Source of the DNA: Deltaproteobacteria bacterium
GTDB lineage: Bacteria; Desulfobacterota; Syntrophia; Syntrophales; Smithellaceae
Reading direction: 5' to 3'
DNA length: 46,063 bases
Assembly: GCA_022703375.1 (NCBI GenBank)
Contig: JAKLDS010000016.1
Location: 1-46,063 of the forward strand
The translations under genes were made by a program, and so were the position numbers. This document shows, piece after piece, positions 15,619-41,719 of this stretch. Below the pieces are notes generated by a model. The model did no database searches and had not been told where the DNA came from. It saw only the letters and a program-made list of their open reading frames with translations. Numbering within the stretch: position 1 is the stretch's first letter; the number at the start of each line of letters is the position of its first letter.

Positions 15619-17325
15619 ATGGCAAAAAACCGATTCCGGCAGAATGTTTCCATCTGGATAATCATCAGTGTAATTGTGGCGCTGGCGGTTACTCTTGCCT
15701 TCATGGCTTCAACTCATCTGAGAAGACAACAGCAGCAGGCGGTGGAGATGATGACCGATAAAGGCGCGACGCTGATTAATACCTTTGCCGCCGCGCTGCG
15801 CAATCCCGCCTATTTTAAGGGTGATTTTTTCAGCCTGCAGAAACTGGTCATGGAAACGGCCAGACAACCGGACATTGACTATATTATAGTTACGGAAGGA
15901 AGCGGTAACATAATTGCCGACAGCGATCCTTCATCAATCGGTGACAGATACGGCATGGATCTCGACATCGGCAGAATTGCTTCTTCTGACGAAATCAGGT
16001 GGCGGCAGGTAGCCAACACTGGCGGCGCCGACACCTTCGAAGTGTACCGCGGTATATTCCTATCCCCGGAAAAAACCAGACCGGACATTGATTCCCGCAG
16101 GCCCGGCAAGAATCCGGCAGCCGATAATTTAATAATTTACACGGGCTTCAACATGGAAGCTATTGACAAAGCTACCAGCGCCGACGCCACTAATACAATA
16201 ATCATCGCCCTGATTCTTTCTTTAATCGGCTCGTCGGTAATAGTTTCCCTTTTTCTGGCGCAGGCCTGGCGGCAGGCCAGTTCTTCTCTTTCGCGGATTA
16301 CGGTTTTTTCCGAAACACTGGTCAAAAATATGCCCATCGGCCTGATTGCCGAAGACGAAAGCGGCCATATTGCCGCCTGCAATGAGAAAGCAGGGGCAAT
16401 TTTAAACATTGCTTGCAGCGATATTGCCGACCGGAAGGCGGATTCTGTTCTGCCTGCGTCTTTGAGGGAAATGCTGGCTTCCCTCCACGGAAGCGGCGGC
16501 TTAGTGGAAAAAGATTTATTATTAACCCTGCAGGGCGAAAATAAAATTCTGGAGGCAGTGGCGGCGGATATTGCAGTTGAAGGTATTGCCGCCGGCCGGA
16601 TGCTGCTCCTGCGCGACGTGACAAAAATACGCCGGTTGGAAAGCGAGGTGGTTAAAAGCCGCCATCTGAACTCTATCGGATCGCTGGCGGCGGGCGTGGC
16701 GCATGAAATCCGCAATCCGCTGAGTTCCCTGAAGGGTTTTGCCGTCTATTTCAAGGAGCGGCTCGCGGGCAACGACGAAGATGAAAAAACGGCCGATGTA
16801 ATGATTCAGGAAACGGAACGCGTCAACCGCGTCGTCAGCCAGCTCATTGAATTTGCCCGTCCTCTGGAATTAAAAAAGGAAAAGGCGCAAATGGCCGATT
16901 TGGTTGCGCATACGGTTTCGCTGATTGCCGCTGCGGGCGATAATAAAACCGCCATCACCATTGACGCGGCGCCGGATTTGCCGGAGGCGGATGTTGACCA
17001 CGACAAAGTCAAGCAGGCGCTGCTTAATGTGCTGCTTAATTCTCTGGCCGCGCTGCCACCGGTCGGTTCGATTGCGGTAAAAATTACTGCGGATAAAAAC
17101 GATATTTTCGTTACCGTTGCTGATACCGGTTCCGGCATCAGCAAAAGTGACTTGCCCCGCATTTACGACCCCTATTTCACATCCAAACCGGCCGGCACCG
17201 GGCTGGGGCTCGCGATAGTCCAGAAAATAATGGAGGCGCACGGCGGCGCAATCGCGGTGGAAAGCGAGGCCGGAGCGGGCACGGTTGTCACCTTGCGTTT
17301 CCCACGGAAAAATATTTTAGCATAA
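15619..17325 (+). CDS. zraS: ZraS/NtrB-like membrane sensor histidine kinase
   Basis: A 568-residue kinase with two membrane segments (about 11-30 and 191-213) flanking a periplasmic sensor of about 160 residues, then a cytoplasmic PAS-like region (about 230-335), HisKA with His362 (AAGVAHEIRNPLSSLKG) and HATPase (DTGSGIS and GTGLGLAIV near the end). The HEIRNPL H-box is typical of kinases that pair with sigma-54 activators. AAAGGA precedes the ATG. The activator gene starts 6 bp after its stop, so the two form an operon. The stimulus is assumed to be envelope or metal stress by analogy with ZraS; the periplasmic domain does not itself prove zinc sensing. Confidence 0.85.
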   Translation: MAKNRFRQNVSIWIIISVIVALAVTLAFMASTHLRRQQQQAVEMMTDKGATLINTFAAALRNPAYFKGDFFSLQKLVMETARQPDIDYIIVTEGSGNIIADSDPSSIGDRYGMDLDIGRIASSDEIRWRQVANTGGADTFEVYRGIFLSPEKTRPDIDSRRPGKNPAADNLIIYTGFNMEAIDKATSADATNTIIIALILSLIGSSVIVSLFLAQAWRQASSSLSRITVFSETLVKNMPIGLIAEDESGHIAACNEKAGAILNIACSDIADRKADSVLPASLREMLASLHGSGGLVEKDLLLTLQGENKILEAVAADIAVEGIAAGRMLLLRDVTKIRRLESEVVKSRHLNSIGSLAAGVAHEIRNPLSSLKGFAVYFKERLAGNDEDEKTADVMIQETERVNRVVSQLIEFARPLELKKEKAQMADLVAHTVSLIAAAGDNKTAITIDAAPDLPEADVDHDKVKQALLNVLLNSLAALPPVGSIAVKITADKNDIFVTVADTGSGISKSDLPRIYDPYFTSKPAGTGLGLAIVQKIMEAHGGAIAVESEAGAGTVVTLRFPRKNILA

Positions 17326-17331
17326 GGACAT

Positions 17332-18690
17332 ATGATGAAAAAAGAACAGACCATTCTTGTTGTTGATGACGATACCGCCCACCGTTTGATGCTGAAAAAA
17401 CTTATCGGCGGCTGGGGCTACGATGTCTGGGAAGCCGATGACGGGGCCCGGGCGATTGCGGCGGTGCGGGAGAAAGCATTTGATTTGATTCTGATGGATA
17501 TCCGGATGCTCCATGTTTCCGGAATTGAAGCGCTCGAAGAAATCAAGATTATCAATCCGGCGATTCCCGTAATTATCATGACTGCGTATGCATCCGTGGA
17601 AACGGCTGTGCAAGCCCTGAAAAAAGGCGCCTATGACTATCTCACCAAACCTCTGGATTTTGATGAGCTGAAAATCGCCATAAGCCGCGCTACGGAACAT
17701 ACGAAGCTCAAAAACGAAAACGAATATTTAAAAAGCCGGCTGGGCGAGCGCTTCGACCGCCGCAATATGATTGGGCAGAGCAAGGCCATGGTAAAGCTGC
17801 TGGATACCGTCTCCCAGGTAGCAGCAACGGAAGCAACTATTTTGATTGCCGGCGAATCGGGAACGGGCAAGGAAATGATTGCCAACGCCCTTCATTTCAA
17901 CAGCCCGCGCGCGGCAGCTCCCTTCGTCAAAATCAACTGCGCGGCGCTCACTGAAACGCTGCTGGAAGCGGAACTGTTCGGCTATGAAAAAGGTTCCTTT
18001 ACGGGAGCCGACAAGCGCCGGGAGGGAAAATTCCGCCAGGCCGACGGCGGCAGTTTATTTTTAGATGAAGTAAGCGAAATGTCGAAAGCCATGCAGGTCA
18101 AGCTGTTGCGTGTGTTGCAGGAACGCGAACTCACCCGCGTGGGCGGCGCGGAAGTCATTAAAATCAATGTCCGCGTCATTGCCGCAGCCAACAAAGATTT
18201 GAAGAAAGAAATGGAGAGCGGCCGCTTCCGTGAAGATTTGTTTTACCGCCTCAACGTTGTCACTCTGCATGTGCCGCCGCTGCGGGAAAGAAGAGAAGAT
18301 ATTCCACTTTTGGCGCAGCATTTTCTGGAGCTTTTCGCCGCGAAGAATTCTCAAAGCATCAAAGGCTTTACACCGCTGGCGGTGGAAAAGATGTTCAAGT
18401 ACAACTGGCCGGGCAATGTGCGGGAACTGATGAATGCGGTCGAACGGGCTGTTGTCCTGGCACGAGCCGAATACATAGATGCGGAAGAACTGGCCTTATT
18501 GATGGACGATAATTCAACAGCTACGGCGACTGCCCCGCCGGAAAATCTGCCGCTGGATGAAGTGGAAAAAAGGACAATCCTGGAGGCGCTCAATACCGCC
18601 CACGGCAATAAAAGTGAAGCGGCTCGCCGTTTGGGTATCACCCGCAAGACACTCCGCGCCAAACTGGACAGGTATGAAAGCAACGGTTGA
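17332..18690 (+). CDS. zraR: Sigma-54-dependent response regulator, ZraR/NtrC class
   Basis: A 452-residue activator: receiver (1-125; Asp11-Asp13 pocket, phospho-acceptor Asp56, Lys106), AAA+ domain (about 147-380) with Walker A GESGTGKE (174-181), Walker B SLFLDEV (241-247) and the sigma-54 contact loop as GSFTGA (221-226), and a Fis-type helix-turn-helix (about 412-450, KSEAARRLGITRKTLRAKL). The loop has Ser where GAFTGA is canonical; GSFTGA occurs in functional activators. Expected to bind the palindromes at 15548-15594 and activate the sigma-54 promoter at 15448-15463. A second ATG directly follows the first, so the start may be one codon later. Confidence 0.92.
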   Translation: MMKKEQTILVVDDDTAHRLMLKKLIGGWGYDVWEADDGARAIAAVREKAFDLILMDIRMLHVSGIEALEEIKIINPAIPVIIMTAYASVETAVQALKKGAYDYLTKPLDFDELKIAISRATEHTKLKNENEYLKSRLGERFDRRNMIGQSKAMVKLLDTVSQVAATEATILIAGESGTGKEMIANALHFNSPRAAAPFVKINCAALTETLLEAELFGYEKGSFTGADKRREGKFRQADGGSLFLDEVSEMSKAMQVKLLRVLQERELTRVGGAEVIKINVRVIAAANKDLKKEMESGRFREDLFYRLNVVTLHVPPLRERREDIPLLAQHFLELFAAKNSQSIKGFTPLAVEKMFKYNWPGNVRELMNAVERAVVLARAEYIDAEELALLMDDNSTATATAPPENLPLDEVEKRTILEALNTAHGNKSEAARRLGITRKTLRAKLDRYESNG

Positions 18691-18764
18691 TGATGCTGCT
18701 CCGGCGTCAGGGAAATGTGCGGCAATTCAATTTTCCGCCGGAAAACCTGTCCGGGTGACGGGCA

Positions 18765-20428: not shown

Positions 20429-21223
20429 TTATCTCTTTTTCATCAGGTATTTACCGATTATACCATTCACGGCGTCCGTCTGTTCAATCATCACCGCATG
20501 GCCGGAATCTATCAGCACCAGGCGCGAGCCGGCTATCTCCGAGGCAATCTGCGCCGCATCCCGGCAATTGTGCAAATAATCCTGTTTCGCGCCGATAATC
20601 AGAGAAGGCACTGTTATTTTATTATAGTTTTGCAAGTCAGTATCCGGATTAAATGATTCCAGAAGCAGAATAATATCCTGACAGGTGTAATATTTTTTCA
20701 TTTCATCCCGAATGGTGAAGAATGTTTTCTCCATCCCGTTAAAGAAATCTCTGCTGTACGACTGCTGCAGAATTATATTACAAAAATCATCAAACTGACC
20801 TTTCTGCAACAGGTTATGCCAGTTCTCCCAAATCCGGCGATAGCCGAAATCGGCCTGCCGCAGGGGAGCCAGCAACACAAGCTTTTCACATAAGGCCGGA
20901 TAACGAACGGCAAATTCCTTGGCGACAAACGATCCGTAGGAAACACCGATAATCGCCGCTTTTTCCACCTTGAGATGTTCCATTAATAGTTTCAAATCAT
21001 CAACCAGCAAAGAGTAGTGGAACGAACTGCTTTCTTTCGCCGATCGTCCCTGACAGCGCTGGTCATAAACAATTACCCTGTATTCTTTCTTGAAATATTC
21101 GATCTGTCGAATCCAGGTCTGCGCGAACATCGCCAGGCCATTGACAAAGATAATCGTTTTTTTCCCCTTGCCATGCTCTTCGTAATAAAAATTTGTCTGA
21201 TTATTGATTTTGAAATAAGCCAT
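20429..21223 (-). CDS. Alpha/beta-fold hydrolase (first of two paralogues)
   Basis: A 264-residue hydrolase from the ATG at 21223 (a GTG two codons earlier is possible; GGGAG and AGGTG lie just upstream). Catalytic triad, numbered from the GTG: nucleophile Ser97 in GVSYGS, Asp217 (GAKQD) and His244 (DSGHAV). The oxyanion strand carries FVNGLAM in place of the common HG. No signal peptide, so cytoplasmic. It is clearly related to the protein at 24045-24869, which has IVNGIMM, GISYGG and the same spacing. Esters, lactones or thioesters are all possible substrates. It lies between the antiporter and the AckA-PduL fusion on the same strand. Confidence 0.82.
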   Translation of the reverse strand: MAYFKINNQTNFYYEEHGKGKKTIIFVNGLAMFAQTWIRQIEYFKKEYRVIVYDQRCQGRSAKESSSFHYSLLVDDLKLLMEHLKVEKAAIIGVSYGSFVAKEFAVRYPALCEKLVLLAPLRQADFGYRRIWENWHNLLQKGQFDDFCNIILQQSYSRDFFNGMEKTFFTIRDEMKKYYTCQDIILLLESFNPDTDLQNYNKITVPSLIIGAKQDYLHNCRDAAQIASEIAGSRLVLIDSGHAVMIEQTDAVNGIIGKYLMKKR

Positions 21224-21294
21224 ATTCACCTACTCCCTGTTTATTATTCCAGTGCTAAAGCAAAGCAGCCGTCGCGGTATACAGGCGAAACCGA

Positions 21295-21353: not shown

Positions 21354-23699
21354 TTACATATAGTTTCTGTGCTGAATCGCCTCTATATACCCCACCGTTC
21401 CTTCTGAAATCTGGGCCGCATTGGCCTCATCCGTATCCAGATGCATGTCCATCCGGTAATCAGGATGAACACGAACCAGCACGTCACCGAATATCAGCTC
21501 GCGGATTCCCTTAACCTTTACCATGACCGAATCACGGTCCCGCAGGCCGAGGCTCAGAGCTTCTTCCGGCGACATGTGGATATGCCGCTTGGCGCAAATA
21601 ACCCCTTTGGTTAATTTAACGGTGCCCGCAGTGCCTTCAATGATGACACCCGGCGTCCCCTCTATATCTCCCGAATCGCGAATCGGCGCGTCAATGCCTA
21701 GTTTGAATTGTTCCGTGCGCGATATTTCCACCTGCGATTCCTTGCGCGCCGGCCCCAGAATTCGCACCCGGTCAATGCGCCCTTTCGGTCCGATGAGATT
21801 CACGGCTTCGTTGGCCGCAAACTGTCCGGGCTGGCTCAGTTCCGAACGCGGCGTCATGATTTTGCCTGCGCCGAAGAGTATCTCGAAGTGTTCCTGGCTG
21901 AGATGGACATGGTGAGCCGATGTGGATAGAGGTATCGGACGGGAACTCAGCTTCTTAATATCATCTTTGGTACGGACGCGTCCTAAAGCATGAATACATT
22001 CGCGGGCAATCATCTTTTCTTCATCGGCAGGTATTACCAGAATTCTGACTTTGGCGCCGGGCTCGGAAATATCGCTAATCTGGCCGCGTCTGGCCTGAGT
22101 CCTTCTGTTAATGTCGTCGAAAACATTAATGCCGAATGATTCCAGCCCCTGGCAGATACGGGCTCGGATTTCCGCGGAATTTTCACCGATGCCGCCGGTG
22201 AAAATCAGTGCATCGAGACCGCCCAGAGCTGCAACATAGGAACCGATGTATTTCCGGGCGCGGTAACAGAAGGTGCTGATGGCGTTTTCGCACCGGACAT
22301 CTCCGGCTTCCGCCGCAGCCAAAATTGTCCGCATATCGTTGCTTTTGCCGGTTATTCCCATTAAGCCGCTTTTTTTATTGAGCAGCTGGTCAACTTCCTC
22401 GACGCTCATCTTGCGATGCCGCATCAATTGCAGAATAACACCGGGATCAATATCACCCGCCCTTGTTCCCATGACCAGGCCCTCGAGCGGCGTCATCCCC
22501 ATGCTGGTATCAACACTTTTGCCGTGATTAATCGCACAAACGGAAGCGCCGCTGCCCAGATGGCAGGAAATAATCCGGAGATCTCCCAGCGGGCGTTTCA
22601 AAAAAGTCGCCGCGGAGAGCGCGACATACTTGTGGTTGGTGCCGTGAAAACCGTAACGGCGGATTTTTTCTTCTTCGCATATCTGGTATGGCAGCGCGTA
22701 GGTGTAAGCATTTTCCGGCATGGCCGTATGAAAAGAAGTATCGAAAACCGCGACCTGGGGCGCCTGCGGAATCAGCTTCTGCATCAGTTCAATACCTTCC
22801 ATATTGTAGGGATTGTGCAGCGGCGCCAGCGCAAAGAGATCCTTAATCGCGGCGGCAACTTCATCGTTTATCAAGATGGAATTGGGAAACTTATCACCGC
22901 CGTGAACAACACGATGGCCGACGGCCTTGATCTCGTTTAAATCTTTCAATCCCGTGTAAGCCATATCGGTAACAGTGTCCACCATCCGGGTAAACGCGTC
23001 TTCCACGCGCATGACATCCTTAACCGCCAGTTCCTTTTTGGCATCCGGTGTGCGGATAACATAGGAGGCGTCACCGGAACCGATTTTTTCAATCAGGCCC
23101 TCGACTACCGGCGCCGGTTTATTCGTGTCGAACAAAGTATATTTGAGAGAAGAACTGCCGCAATTCACGGTCAGTATTTTCATCGGTTCGGAAACGGAAG
23201 TGAAGTTTAAATCGTAAGGGTCGGCATTTTCCTTGTGGGCATTTTTGAGCCGCTCCTGAGCGTCATCCTGCTGATTGCGCAGCATTCTTTTGGTAACCAG
23301 GCGTGTAAACTTCCCCAGTGTCTGGGGATTGCCGGCGATAATCCGGGAAAAAATCTCTCGCGGGATACGCAGCAGCTTCACGGACCTGCTGGCAACCACA
23401 TCCAGCACCGCAGGCTCGCCGGTCAACAGGGACATTTCACCGAAGATTTGCGCCCTCTCCAGGGAAGCTATGGAACGCCGGCTGCCGTCATCTTCCGTCA
23501 GCAGAACTTCCACCTCGCCGTCGTAAACCATCCAGAGCCAGCGCCCCAGTTCGCCGCGCCTGATAATTGTATCATCGTCTTTAAATTCCAGCATCTGGGC
23601 ATTTTCCGCCAGAAGCTCAATTTCCTCATCACGCAAATCGGCAAGTATTTCTATGCCTTTGATAAATCTGGAAAGTTCCATATCGCGACATCCTTTCAT
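21354..23699 (-). CDS. ackA: Triple fusion: cNMP-binding domain + acetate kinase + PduL phosphotransacylase
   Basis: One 781-residue chain with three parts. Residues of about 8-145 are a cyclic-nucleotide-binding (Crp-like) domain with FGEMSLLTGEP at 86-96. Residues 173-575 are a complete acetate kinase: NCGSSSLK (179-186), GHRVVHGG (261-268), VFDTSFHT (318-325, catalytic Asp320), RYGFHGTNHKYV (348-359), HLGSGASV (380-387), TGGIGENS (501-508). Residues of about 585-781 are a PduL-type phosphotransacylase with metal-binding HHVHL (596-600) and KRHIHM (704-709). Together they can run acetyl-CoA + Pi to acetyl-phosphate to acetate + ATP, or the reverse. The Arg that binds the cyclic phosphate in CRP is Ala97 here, so classic cAMP sensing is doubtful. 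An alternative start, ATG at 23681, has AAGGA 9 bases upstream and may be the true one. Hydrolase paralogues lie on both sides. Confidence 0.92.
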   Translation of the reverse strand: MKGCRDMELSRFIKGIEILADLRDEEIELLAENAQMLEFKDDDTIIRRGELGRWLWMVYDGEVEVLLTEDDGSRRSIASLERAQIFGEMSLLTGEPAVLDVVASRSVKLLRIPREIFSRIIAGNPQTLGKFTRLVTKRMLRNQQDDAQERLKNAHKENADPYDLNFTSVSEPMKILTVNCGSSSLKYTLFDTNKPAPVVEGLIEKIGSGDASYVIRTPDAKKELAVKDVMRVEDAFTRMVDTVTDMAYTGLKDLNEIKAVGHRVVHGGDKFPNSILINDEVAAAIKDLFALAPLHNPYNMEGIELMQKLIPQAPQVAVFDTSFHTAMPENAYTYALPYQICEEEKIRRYGFHGTNHKYVALSAATFLKRPLGDLRIISCHLGSGASVCAINHGKSVDTSMGMTPLEGLVMGTRAGDIDPGVILQLMRHRKMSVEEVDQLLNKKSGLMGITGKSNDMRTILAAAEAGDVRCENAISTFCYRARKYIGSYVAALGGLDALIFTGGIGENSAEIRARICQGLESFGINVFDDINRRTQARRGQISDISEPGAKVRILVIPADEEKMIARECIHALGRVRTKDDIKKLSSRPIPLSTSAHHVHLSQEHFEILFGAGKIMTPRSELSQPGQFAANEAVNLIGPKGRIDRVRILGPARKESQVEISRTEQFKLGIDAPIRDSGDIEGTPGVIIEGTAGTVKLTKGVICAKRHIHMSPEEALSLGLRDRDSVMVKVKGIRELIFGDVLVRVHPDYRMDMHLDTDEANAAQISEGTVGYIEAIQHRNYM

Positions 23700-23931: not shown

Positions 23932-24024
23932 TTATCTTTGAGTGATCGAAAGGATAATCCCGGCGAAGCACGGGAGAGGTGCCAGACGATGAAAAACCCC
24001 GGCTGTTGCGGGTTCCTGCCATCC
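23932..24024 (+). other. Structured 5' leader of the second hydrolase, class unassigned
   Basis: Three adjacent hairpins can be drawn on the plus strand: TTATCTTT with AAAGGATAA (23932-23957, one bulged G), TCCCG with CGGGA (23958-23975), and AAC-CCCG with CGGGTT (23995-24014, one bulged C). As an alternative to the first hairpin, GGAT (23952-23955) could pair with ATCC (24021-24024) to close the set. The rest of the 345-bp gap holds the promoter at 23779-23807, an AT-rich 8-bp hairpin (23854-23873) and a CGCCGGC/GCCGGCG pair (23883-23920). The order of motifs matches no riboswitch class recognised here, so function is unknown. Confidence 0.35.
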
Positions 24025-24044
24025 AAGAAAAGGAGATAGAAAGT

Positions 24045-24869
24045 ATGCCGAAAATTAAATGCCAGAACAAAAACATCTATTATGAAATTCATGGCGAAGG
24101 TGAACCGCTGCTGATTGTCAACGGCATCATGATGAGCACGGCCAGCTGGCTGCCCTTTAAAGATGTTCTGACCAGCAGATACAAACTAGTGCTGTTCGAT
24201 CTGGTTGATCAGGGACAATCCGATAAAATGGCGGGCGAACCTTTTTATACGCAGGATTATCATGTCCAGACGATTAAGGAATTGATAGAAAAACTGAATC
24301 TGGGCAAGATCCATTTGTTCGGCATATCTTACGGAGGCGAAGTCGCCATCAAATTTGCGCTCGCGCATGAAGAGATGATTCACTCTTTGATTTTATCCAA
24401 TACGCCCTTCAAAACCACCGGCATGCTCAGATACATTGCCAAAAGATGGGAGGCGGTATTTAAAACATATGACGGTATTGCTTTTTTTCAGGAAGTCAAT
24501 CAGCTGATTTATGCCGAAAAATTCTACGATGATAACGCCGCCTGGCTGGAAGAAAGAGCGCAATTTTTCAATAAAGCTCTGCCTCCGGAATGGTATGATG
24601 GAATGATCAGGCTTCTCCGGAGCGGCGATAATTACGACCCCGAGAACGAATTATCCGCAATCAACACCCGCACGCTTATCATCGGAGGCAATGAAGACAG
24701 GATAACGCCCGCTAAATATCAAAAGCAAATAGCCGATAAAATAAAAAATTCCAGTTTGATTATTGTTGACGGCGCCGCCCATGTCCTTCCTTATGAAAAG
24801 CCTCATGTTTTTTGCGCGGCAATTCTGGGATTTCTGGAAGTATGCAGGAAGGAAATTAAAACCATGTAA
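24045..24869 (+). CDS. Alpha/beta-fold hydrolase (second paralogue)
   Basis: A 274-residue hydrolase. The start at 24045 is chosen because AAGGAG lies 9-14 bases upstream; a longer frame from 23979 would run through the structured leader. Triad: Ser95 in GISYGG, Asp218 in GGNEDRITP and His246 in DGAAHVL. The oxyanion segment is IVNGIMM, as in the paralogue at 20429-21223. No signal peptide, so cytoplasmic. It is divergent from the AckA-PduL fusion, so two members of one hydrolase subfamily bracket that gene. A substrate cannot be read; acyl-CoA or ester hydrolysis would fit the context, but this is speculation. Confidence 0.82.
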   Translation: MPKIKCQNKNIYYEIHGEGEPLLIVNGIMMSTASWLPFKDVLTSRYKLVLFDLVDQGQSDKMAGEPFYTQDYHVQTIKELIEKLNLGKIHLFGISYGGEVAIKFALAHEEMIHSLILSNTPFKTTGMLRYIAKRWEAVFKTYDGIAFFQEVNQLIYAEKFYDDNAAWLEERAQFFNKALPPEWYDGMIRLLRSGDNYDPENELSAINTRTLIIGGNEDRITPAKYQKQIADKIKNSSLIIVDGAAHVLPYEKPHVFCAAILGFLEVCRKEIKTM

Positions 24870-39049: not shown

Positions 39050-41719
39050 TTACTTGAATAACAGGCTCACCCTGATTAGTCCGTCCGGCAACGGTTCTTT
39101 GCTCATCCCCAGTTTTTCACAAAGCTTCTGCATTTTGATATTACCGGCTTCAATGTAACCGAAAAATTCGGACAGATTCTTTTCTCCGGCAATGCCGATG
39201 AGATAATCAAGCAGCTTATAGGCAAGCCCCCTGCCCTGATACTTATCATGAACAATGACGGCAAACTCACACTTTTCCAGATCACCTTCCAGCGCGAAAC
39301 TGCCGATGCCGATAATCTTTCTTTTGTTGTTTTCCCGTATTTCGGCGACGATGGCCATCTCCCGTTCATAATCAATATTGCAGGAACGAACATGCATCAT
39401 ATGGGAAATATTTTTAATTGTCTGGTAATATCTGCCCCGCAATGTTTCTTCCGAAATTTCCGTCAGCATATCATGTTCCAGCGGTTCGTCTTCCGGTTTG
39501 ATCGGTCTTAACAGCACATCGGTTCCATCGGCGGAGCGCCAGTTGCTGACATAACGCACCGGATACGGCGTAATCACCAAATGCGGATATTGGGCTGATT
39601 CCTCAAGGCAGCCTTTATCCATGATTATCTTGGCATCCAGGGCAACTGCCTTGCCGTTGACGATGCCCAGCGGATTGATATCCATTTCCTGTATTTCCGG
39701 GAAATCCATCACCAGATTGGAAAAGCTGACAATAATTTCCTCCAGTTGCCGCAAATCCGCGGGCGGTTTGCCGCGGTACCCCTGCAGCAATTGATATACC
39801 CTGGTATCTTCAATCAGACGGCGGGCCAGCGTCTGGTTGAGCGGCGGCAGCGCCAGGGAAAAATCCTGGAATACTTCCACACCGATGCCTCCTCTGCCGA
39901 ACATGATTACGGAACCGAAGCTTTTGTCTTTTTTTGCACCCAGGATCAATTCGTAATCAATCATTTCAACCATTTTCTGGACGATAACTCCTTTGATTGT
40001 CGCCTGCGGCGCCCGGAGCCGCACTCGTTGAAAGATTTTCTGATATTCTTCCTTCAACGCATCGGCGGATTTGATTCCTGTGACAATACCTCCGACATCG
40101 TGCCGGAAAATGATTTCCGGCGAAGAAATTTTCAGGACAACCGGATAGCCGATTTCATCGGCATAGCGCAGTGCCGCAGCTTCGCTTTCGGCCACATACG
40201 ATTTGATTGTGGGAATGCCGTAGTTGGAAAGGAACCGCACCGCTTCATCGTCTGTCAGAACCGGCTTTCCCACCCGGCAGATTTTTTTAATCAATGTTTT
40301 CAGATTGTTGATCGGCGGCGTCTGATCAACGCTGAGCTCGGAAGGCGTTTCATTCACCAGCAGAATATTTTTCTGGTAATTGTACATATACATATAGGCG
40401 CGAATGGCGTCTTCCGAAGTTTCGTAAGCCGGAATATCTTTCCGCAGCAGTATTTCTTTGCCCTGCTTAACCTCATTACCGCCCAGCCACGCCGTCAGCA
40501 GCGGCTTGCCCGTCGCCTCGGCGACCGATATCATCGCGGCGGCCAGATCGGCGGAACGTGCGGCATCCTGCGGCGTGTAAATGACAAGAACGCCGTCAAC
40601 ATTAGCGTCGGCAAGACAGGCGTTAAGCGCGCCGATATACCGTTCTACTTCCGCATCGCGCATTACATTAACGGGATTTCCCCGCTTCCAGAAGGGCGGC
40701 AGCAGTAAATCAAGTTTTTTTATTGTCGGTGCGGAGAGCTCCGCCAGCCTGCCGCCCGAGGCAAGCAATCTTCCGGCAGCCATCACACCCATTCCCCCGG
40801 CATTGGTAATTATCGCCAGATTAGGCCCCCGGGGATGATTTCTGGAACAAAGAACACTGGCCGTGGTGAGAATATCCTTGGGTTCCCAGACCCTGACCAT
40901 TCCTATCCGGCGAAAAACGGCGTTGGCTACTTCTTCAGCATCGGCCAGCATGCCGGTGTGCGTGTAACATTCTTCGTTATCACTTTTAATTTGCCTGGGT
41001 TTAAGCACCACAATCGGCTTACTGCGGGTGAAGGCGCGAGCGGCGCTGACAAAACGCCGCACATTGCCTATTTCGTTTTCCAGATAAATTATTATACTTT
41101 TTGTCTGGGAATCGCTGCCCAGAAAATCAATTATGCTGCCGAAATCAACATCCACGGCAGATCCCAGAGAGGCAATCATACTGAATCCGATATGTTCACT
41201 GATACCCCAGTCGTAAAGTGTCCGGGGGAAATTGCCCGTATGGGCAATAAAGGCGATATTGCCCGATTCCGGCTGCGTCGAAAGCGTAGTGGCATTAAGG
41301 CCGATATTTGTTCGCATAATGCCCAGAGAGCCGGGGCCGACAATACGCATGCCGTAGTTCCTGCCTGCCGTCACTATCTGCCGCTCCAGTTCCCTCCCGC
41401 CGGCTCCCGTTTCGCCGAAACCTGATGATACGATAACGACACCATCCACTCCCGCTCTGCCGCATTCTTCGACTACGGCCGGAACTGCCGCCGCCGGTAT
41501 GACAATAACCGCCAAATCAATGTGTTCACTGATGTCCAAAATACTCGAGTGACAGGGAAGATTATTCAGCGAAGAACGTTTATTGTTGATGGGAAAAAAG
41601 TTAATTCCCCTGTTTTGCCGCAAATTGTCAAACAGGGCTTTGCCGAAAGAGCCTTTTTTCTCCGTGGCTCCAATCAGCGCGACCGTCCGGGGATTGAGCA
41701 TTTTAAAAAGATCACCCAT
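39050..41719 (-). CDS. ADP-forming acyl-CoA synthetase fused to GNAT acetyltransferase
   Basis: An 889-residue fusion. Residues 1-455 are the CoA-binding and ligase (alpha) part of NDP-forming acetyl-CoA synthetases; about 480-710 is the ATP-grasp (beta) part (GYPVVLKISSPEI, MFGRGGIGVEVFQDF, EMDINPL); about 735-889 is a GNAT domain with the acetyl-CoA loop KYQGRGLAYKLL (826-837). The plan is that of the Pat/PatZ lysine acetyltransferases, in which the phospho-histidine of the synthetase is usually lost. Here THTGMLA keeps a histidine at the matching place (His254), so the synthetase half may still make ATP. It could be a true synthetase with an added acetyltransferase, or a Pat protein. Transcribed alone; the tol-pal promoter lies just after its stop. 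Confidence 0.88.
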   Translation of the reverse strand: MGDLFKMLNPRTVALIGATEKKGSFGKALFDNLRQNRGINFFPINNKRSSLNNLPCHSSILDISEHIDLAVIVIPAAAVPAVVEECGRAGVDGVVIVSSGFGETGAGGRELERQIVTAGRNYGMRIVGPGSLGIMRTNIGLNATTLSTQPESGNIAFIAHTGNFPRTLYDWGISEHIGFSMIASLGSAVDVDFGSIIDFLGSDSQTKSIIIYLENEIGNVRRFVSAARAFTRSKPIVVLKPRQIKSDNEECYTHTGMLADAEEVANAVFRRIGMVRVWEPKDILTTASVLCSRNHPRGPNLAIITNAGGMGVMAAGRLLASGGRLAELSAPTIKKLDLLLPPFWKRGNPVNVMRDAEVERYIGALNACLADANVDGVLVIYTPQDAARSADLAAAMISVAEATGKPLLTAWLGGNEVKQGKEILLRKDIPAYETSEDAIRAYMYMYNYQKNILLVNETPSELSVDQTPPINNLKTLIKKICRVGKPVLTDDEAVRFLSNYGIPTIKSYVAESEAAALRYADEIGYPVVLKISSPEIIFRHDVGGIVTGIKSADALKEEYQKIFQRVRLRAPQATIKGVIVQKMVEMIDYELILGAKKDKSFGSVIMFGRGGIGVEVFQDFSLALPPLNQTLARRLIEDTRVYQLLQGYRGKPPADLRQLEEIIVSFSNLVMDFPEIQEMDINPLGIVNGKAVALDAKIIMDKGCLEESAQYPHLVITPYPVRYVSNWRSADGTDVLLRPIKPEDEPLEHDMLTEISEETLRGRYYQTIKNISHMMHVRSCNIDYEREMAIVAEIRENNKRKIIGIGSFALEGDLEKCEFAVIVHDKYQGRGLAYKLLDYLIGIAGEKNLSEFFGYIEAGNIKMQKLCEKLGMSKEPLPDGLIRVSLLFK

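Follow-up and report, generated by a model that had tools for sequence, protein, structure and literature searches.

A conserved CNBD–AckA–PduL fusion in Syntrophales, a candidate single-chain route from acetyl-CoA to acetate and ATP

The window analysed here is a 46,063-nucleotide stretch of contig JAKLDS010000016.1 from a member of the Smithellaceae (Syntrophales; assembly GCA_022703375.1), and carries a gene encoding a cNMP-binding-fold domain (CNBD), an acetate kinase (AckA) domain and a PduL phosphotransacylase domain on one chain (Table 1). Pfam assigned the protein to cNMP_binding (3.1e-17), Acetate_kinase (1.6e-146, full profile) and PTAC/PduL (1.6e-75), and NCBIfam domain calls agreed. 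The open reading frame and the three Pfam domains thus confirm the initial annotation of one uninterrupted AckA–PduL frame behind a Crp-type fold, and the motifs named there (GHRVVHGG, VFDTSFHT, TGGIGENS and two PduL histidine clusters) were all found. The true start is probably Met7 (ATG at 23681), since this residue is invariant in 20 orthologues and lies downstream of an AAAGGA, with residues 1–6 varying. An AlphaFold2 model of the protein had a mean pLDDT of 90.8 and a pTM of 0.71, with the relative placement of the domains not fixed by the model. Both enzyme domains were more conserved (AckA 0.79, PduL 0.86) than the CNBD (0.72), and the DPYDL of the linker segment was invariant in the 20 orthologues. 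Full-length orthologues with identical domain junctions and 63–84% identity occurred in about 20 of 99 related genomes. Because these genomes were separately assembled, a sequencing or assembly join of separate genes, the artefact that might have undone the initial annotation, was ruled out and is practically inconceivable.

Table 1. Position, strand and basis of the fusion gene and its parts within the window.
Feature	Position	Strand	Basis
CNBD–AckA–PduL fusion gene	21354..23699	(-)	Single uninterrupted 781-codon ORF, stop within coordinates
cNMP-binding-fold domain, PF00027, residues 38–122	23334..23588	(-)	Pfam; closest solved relatives PKA/PKG regulatory domains; PKA RI-alpha CNB fold match
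Phosphate-binding-cassette region, residues 86–99 FGEMSLLTGEPAVL	23403..23444	(-)	Homologue alignment
Helical linker and DPYDLNF segment, residues 141–172, CNBD-to-AckA joint	23184..23279	(-)	Orthologue alignment
Acetate kinase domain, PF00871, residues 174–566	22002..23180	(-)	Pfam; catalytic residues mapped to 1g99
PduL phosphotransacylase domain, PF06130, residues 591–764	21408..21929	(-)	Pfam; residue roles from PMC4784909

The neighbours of the fusion gene differed in essentially every relative examined, and just three other families recurred in at least three compared loci: an ABC ATPase, an NtrC-type regulator and, among three close relatives, a small family. A conserved operon or a tie to the adjacent two-component genes was therefore rejected, and the nearby sensor kinase/NtrC pair appears incidental to the fusion. 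With the two-component genes not conserved beside the fusion, nothing supports the earlier suggestion that it keeps acetyl phosphate away from response regulators encoded close by. On either side of the fusion lies an alpha/beta hydrolase gene, at 20429–21229 (-) and 23979–24869 (+), and relatives do not conserve these two as neighbours either. Elsewhere in the window, 39050–41719 (-) encodes an 889-aa ADP-forming acetyl/acyl-CoA ligase (alpha+beta) with a GNAT domain at its C-terminus; its THTG histidine is presumably the would-be phospho-histidine of active ligases, and the protein may be an active ligase, not only a Pat/PatZ-type acetyltransferase. The genome also encodes a 314-aa PTA_PTB phosphate acetyl/butyryltransferase (G000:C33:40290-40925; L125:1249-2193), which adjoins an alpha/beta hydrolase gene and for which no kinase partner was found.

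The AckA domain scored well above the cut-offs of both PF00871 (488 bits against 22) and TIGR00016 (495 against 293.4), fell in the general acetate/propionate kinase subfamily, had the acetate kinase of Methanosarcina thermophila (1g99) as its best match, and in the model superposed on that solved structure with a TM score of 0.95. The catalytic residues that we checked, which we take from the general AckA literature and mapped on 1g99, were kept at N7, S10, S12, K14, R91, H123, D148, F179, H180, H208, R241, R285, G331, N335 and E384, and 11 of them (N7, S10, S12, K14, R91, H123, D148, H180, R241, R285 and E384) were present in all 24 Syntrophales orthologues compared. The sole change in the window protein was N211 to Ser; some stand-alone AckAs have Ala or Gly there, so the change is tolerated. 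The domain shares its fold and catalytic residues with stand-alone 1g99 (50% identity by structural alignment), but sits between two other domains and belongs to a set of Syntrophales fusions in most of which position 211 is Ser.

In the available text of the report on PduL 5cuo from Rhodopseudomonas palustris, that enzyme is a two-barrel domain with zinc sites H48/H50/E109 and H157/H159/H204 and a phosphate-contacting Arg103 (PMC4784909). All six zinc ligands are kept in the fusion as H597, H599, E658, H706, H708 and H753, as is the phosphate-contacting arginine (R652), and the modelled domain matched 5cuo with a TM score of 0.96 and an rmsd of 0.9 A at 44% identity by structural alignment. 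The initial annotation of complete AckA and PduL domains therefore stands, with the checked catalytic residues of both kept except for N211. Unlike 5cuo, the fusion PduL has no encapsulation peptide and its host has no microcompartment genes; a search of the host genome for BMC shell genes (PF00936) returned none, and with PduL C-terminal in the fusion, assignment as a microcompartment PduL was rejected.

The CNBD was clear as a fold, matching PF00027 with 62.8 bits against a cut-off of 27.5 and, as modelled, resembling solved PKA-type CNBDs (TM 0.75). Its phosphate-binding cassette, GEMSLLTGEPAVLD, retains Gly87 and Glu88, with Ala97 at the canonical arginine position. In PKA, PKG and CRP the cassette arginine holds the cyclic phosphate; it was found in this column in 0/37 homologues among the CNBD fusions, its replacements being Ala, Ser, Thr, Val, Leu, Ile, Met or Glu; two Rhodocyclales members carry an arginine one column before it. 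As a control, three further CNBDs identified in the host genome all keep the arginine. Thus, of the 'cyclic-nucleotide-binding' domain originally annotated, the PF00027 fold was upheld and the ligand-binding arginine was not. The host probably makes cAMP, since its genome holds six class III cyclase matches; one stretch (G000:C31, about 16350-18761) apparently places a CNBD that keeps the canonical arginine and a class III cyclase match in one 924-aa frame.

These observations bear on whether the CNBD could bind cAMP or cGMP and gate the enzyme, tying cyclic-nucleotide signalling to acetate metabolism. Such a link would have a parallel in mycobacterial Pat, which is cAMP-regulated, likewise places a cNMP-binding fold ahead of an acetate/acetyl-CoA enzyme (CNBD plus GNAT acetyltransferase) and gave a weak NCBIfam match to the fusion CNBD. 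The unambiguous PF00027 match, the PKA/PKG domains as nearest solved relatives and the cyclases of the host would all suit it. However, the catalytic domain of Pat differs, and the arginine for the cyclic phosphate is replaced throughout the family while kept in control CNBDs of the same genome, making canonical cAMP or cGMP sensing by this domain doubtful; the ribose-binding glutamate is lost as well in the Rhodocyclales fusions. We therefore regard canonical cyclic-nucleotide control of the fusion as quite improbable despite the class III cyclase matches, and a role in oligomerisation or in binding another ligand as more likely.

A wider search for AckA–PduL fusions recovered a fusion of some type in 35 of 127 genomes sampled across the order (each at least 85% complete): 28 carriers had the three-domain type (a few as fragments) and seven a shorter type without the CNBD, at about 51% identity. 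In a sample of 345 genomes from the phylum, AckA–PduL fusions occurred outside the order in only three. Three-domain relatives were also found in Candidatus Magnetominusculus (Nitrospirota), with two paralogues per genome, and in Azonexaceae/Zoogloea-type Rhodocyclales, and fusions without the CNBD in Myxococcota and Bacteroidota (domains checked) and in one spirochaete (by alignment only). Maximum-likelihood trees built separately for the AckA and PduL domains agreed, and in each the CNBD-bearing fusions of Syntrophales, Magnetominusculus, other members of the same phylum and Rhodocyclales formed a single clade (support 98/93 for AckA and 96/91 for PduL). The three domains have thus travelled together and were probably joined once, followed by a patchy spread that was probably at least partly by horizontal transfer. 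In the AckA tree this clade also includes a Nitrospirota AckA (L058:5794-7263) in which the DPYxLxF linker seen in the three-domain family remains without CNBD or PduL, likely a secondary loss of both partner domains. The PduL of a myxococcal fusion without the CNBD (L051) clustered with stand-alone PduLs, a sign that AckA and PduL fused independently at least once. Separately, one Syntrophales genus carries a second fusion paralogue directly upstream of DUF3141 (PF11339; L057:7053-10838, L158:1841-4663 and L159:1703-4399); in one metagenome-assembled genome PduL continues in frame into DUF3141 at this locus, and the same genome has a frameshift within AckA.

The kinase is not intact in every relative. 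The three Rhodocyclales fusions (L048, L049 and L050) have all lost S10, S12, K14, R285, G331 and N335, with substitutions such as K14H, S12Q, R285H, G331D and N335T, and one Magnetominusculus paralogue pair (L046 and L132) has lost R285 and N335 and carries Lys at E385. Judged by these residues, the AckA domains concerned are probable pseudokinases, while their PduL residues are intact wherever the sequence is complete. The architecture therefore need not always form an ATP-forming pair.

The host genome, which is 95% complete, encodes no PF00871 or PF06130 protein other than the fusion, making a one-protein route from acetyl-CoA to acetate and ATP the most likely. As both predicted active sites are intact, a bifunctional enzyme is a sensible reading, and we consider it reasonably likely, from sequence and model, that this is an ATP-forming acetyl-CoA-to-acetate enzyme of Syntrophales with the CNBD as a non-canonical oligomerisation or allosteric module. 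The PduL domain would convert acetyl-CoA and inorganic phosphate to acetyl phosphate in a zinc-dependent reaction, and the AckA domain of the same chain would pass the phosphate to ADP; the CNBD, acting through the long helix and DPYDLNF, would serve oligomerisation or allostery rather than canonical cAMP or cGMP binding. The overall chemistry would be that of the classical AckA and Pta of fermenters such as Syntrophomonas wolfei. Here we infer catalytic activity, an acetyl substrate, the ATP-ward direction and a regulatory role for the CNBD. Counted against the ATP-forming role are the degenerate kinases of the Rhodocyclales fusions and of one Magnetominusculus paralogue, and the presence in the same genome of the PTA_PTB and the ADP-forming ligase with GNAT, alternative acetyl-CoA/ATP routes by which the fusion is not the only one possible.

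The same two proteins, a further phosphotransacylase and an acyl-CoA ligase, would also fit a fusion that runs mainly in reverse, or on propionyl or butyryl, as an acid-activating kinase/transacylase rather than an ATP source. Both enzymes catalyse reversible reactions, and the original name of PduL refers to propanoyl transfer. Instead of acetyl, the fusion might act on propionyl or butyryl groups. However, the closeness of the AckA domain to acetate kinase 1g99 within the general acetate/propionate subfamily argues against this, as does the fact that acetate production sustains the cultured relative S. aciditrophicus, and we think it unlikely. True channelling of acetyl phosphate away from bulk solution is a separate matter, compatible with the bifunctional ATP-forming enzyme. 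In its favour, two consecutive enzymes have been kept on one chain across an order and in other phyla, and channelling has already been suggested in print, in the available text of PMC4784909. Yet fusion, which guarantees co-location and equal amounts of both steps, by itself also explains stoichiometry and co-regulation, the placement of the domains is unsure at the modelled pTM, and the response regulators that channelling might have spared are not conserved neighbours; channelling is thus possible, though we would not expect it. Still speculative, and in our view improbable, is that the CNBD of the bifunctional enzyme was repurposed for a non-cyclic ligand (e.g. CoA, pyrophosphate or an adenine nucleotide) that allosterically controls a single protein making ATP from acetyl-CoA, with the degenerate kinases of Rhodocyclales and of one Magnetominusculus paralogue leaving a sensor-controlled PduL. 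If so, PduL in those relatives would make or drain acetyl phosphate and no ATP would be formed.

The arrangement was initially thought undescribed, but the AckA–PduL fusion and the channelling idea both have precedent: the available text of Erbilgin et al. 2016 (PLoS Biol) reports PF06130 within multidomain proteins that mostly carry an Ack annotation and lack encapsulation peptides, and suggests that fusion to Ack aids channelling (PMC4784909). The protein described here resembles those in joining PduL to Ack without an encapsulation peptide and differs in its N-terminal cNMP-binding-fold domain, which is unmentioned in the available text; nor does that text give the phylogeny or taxonomic range of the Ack-PTAC fusions (PMC4784909). 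In the open-licence literature searched, we found no description of the three-domain form or of its altered sensor pocket. New, therefore, are the conservation of the three-domain architecture and its patchy distribution, along with the kinase-degenerate relatives with intact PduL and the missing canonical ligand residue of the CNBD.

The syntrophic order Syntrophales conserves energy in unusual ways. Its model species, S. aciditrophicus, was reported to have no AckA or Pta homologues (James et al. 2016; PMC4992975) and to make ATP by the AMP-forming, PPi-dependent Acs1 (PMC4992975), whereas the fusion host, in the same order, has a single-chain AckA–PduL alternative. A complete single-contig genome of this order (G084) gave no AckA match at 1e-20. 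The fusion thus marks Syntrophales relatives that may conserve energy differently from S. aciditrophicus, and with about a quarter of sampled relatives carrying a single-chain AckA–PduL, it offers a testable map of ATP routes by member. Direct regulation of the acetyl-phosphate node in these bacteria is a further possibility, suggested by the sensor-like domain and by the relatives with degenerate kinases.
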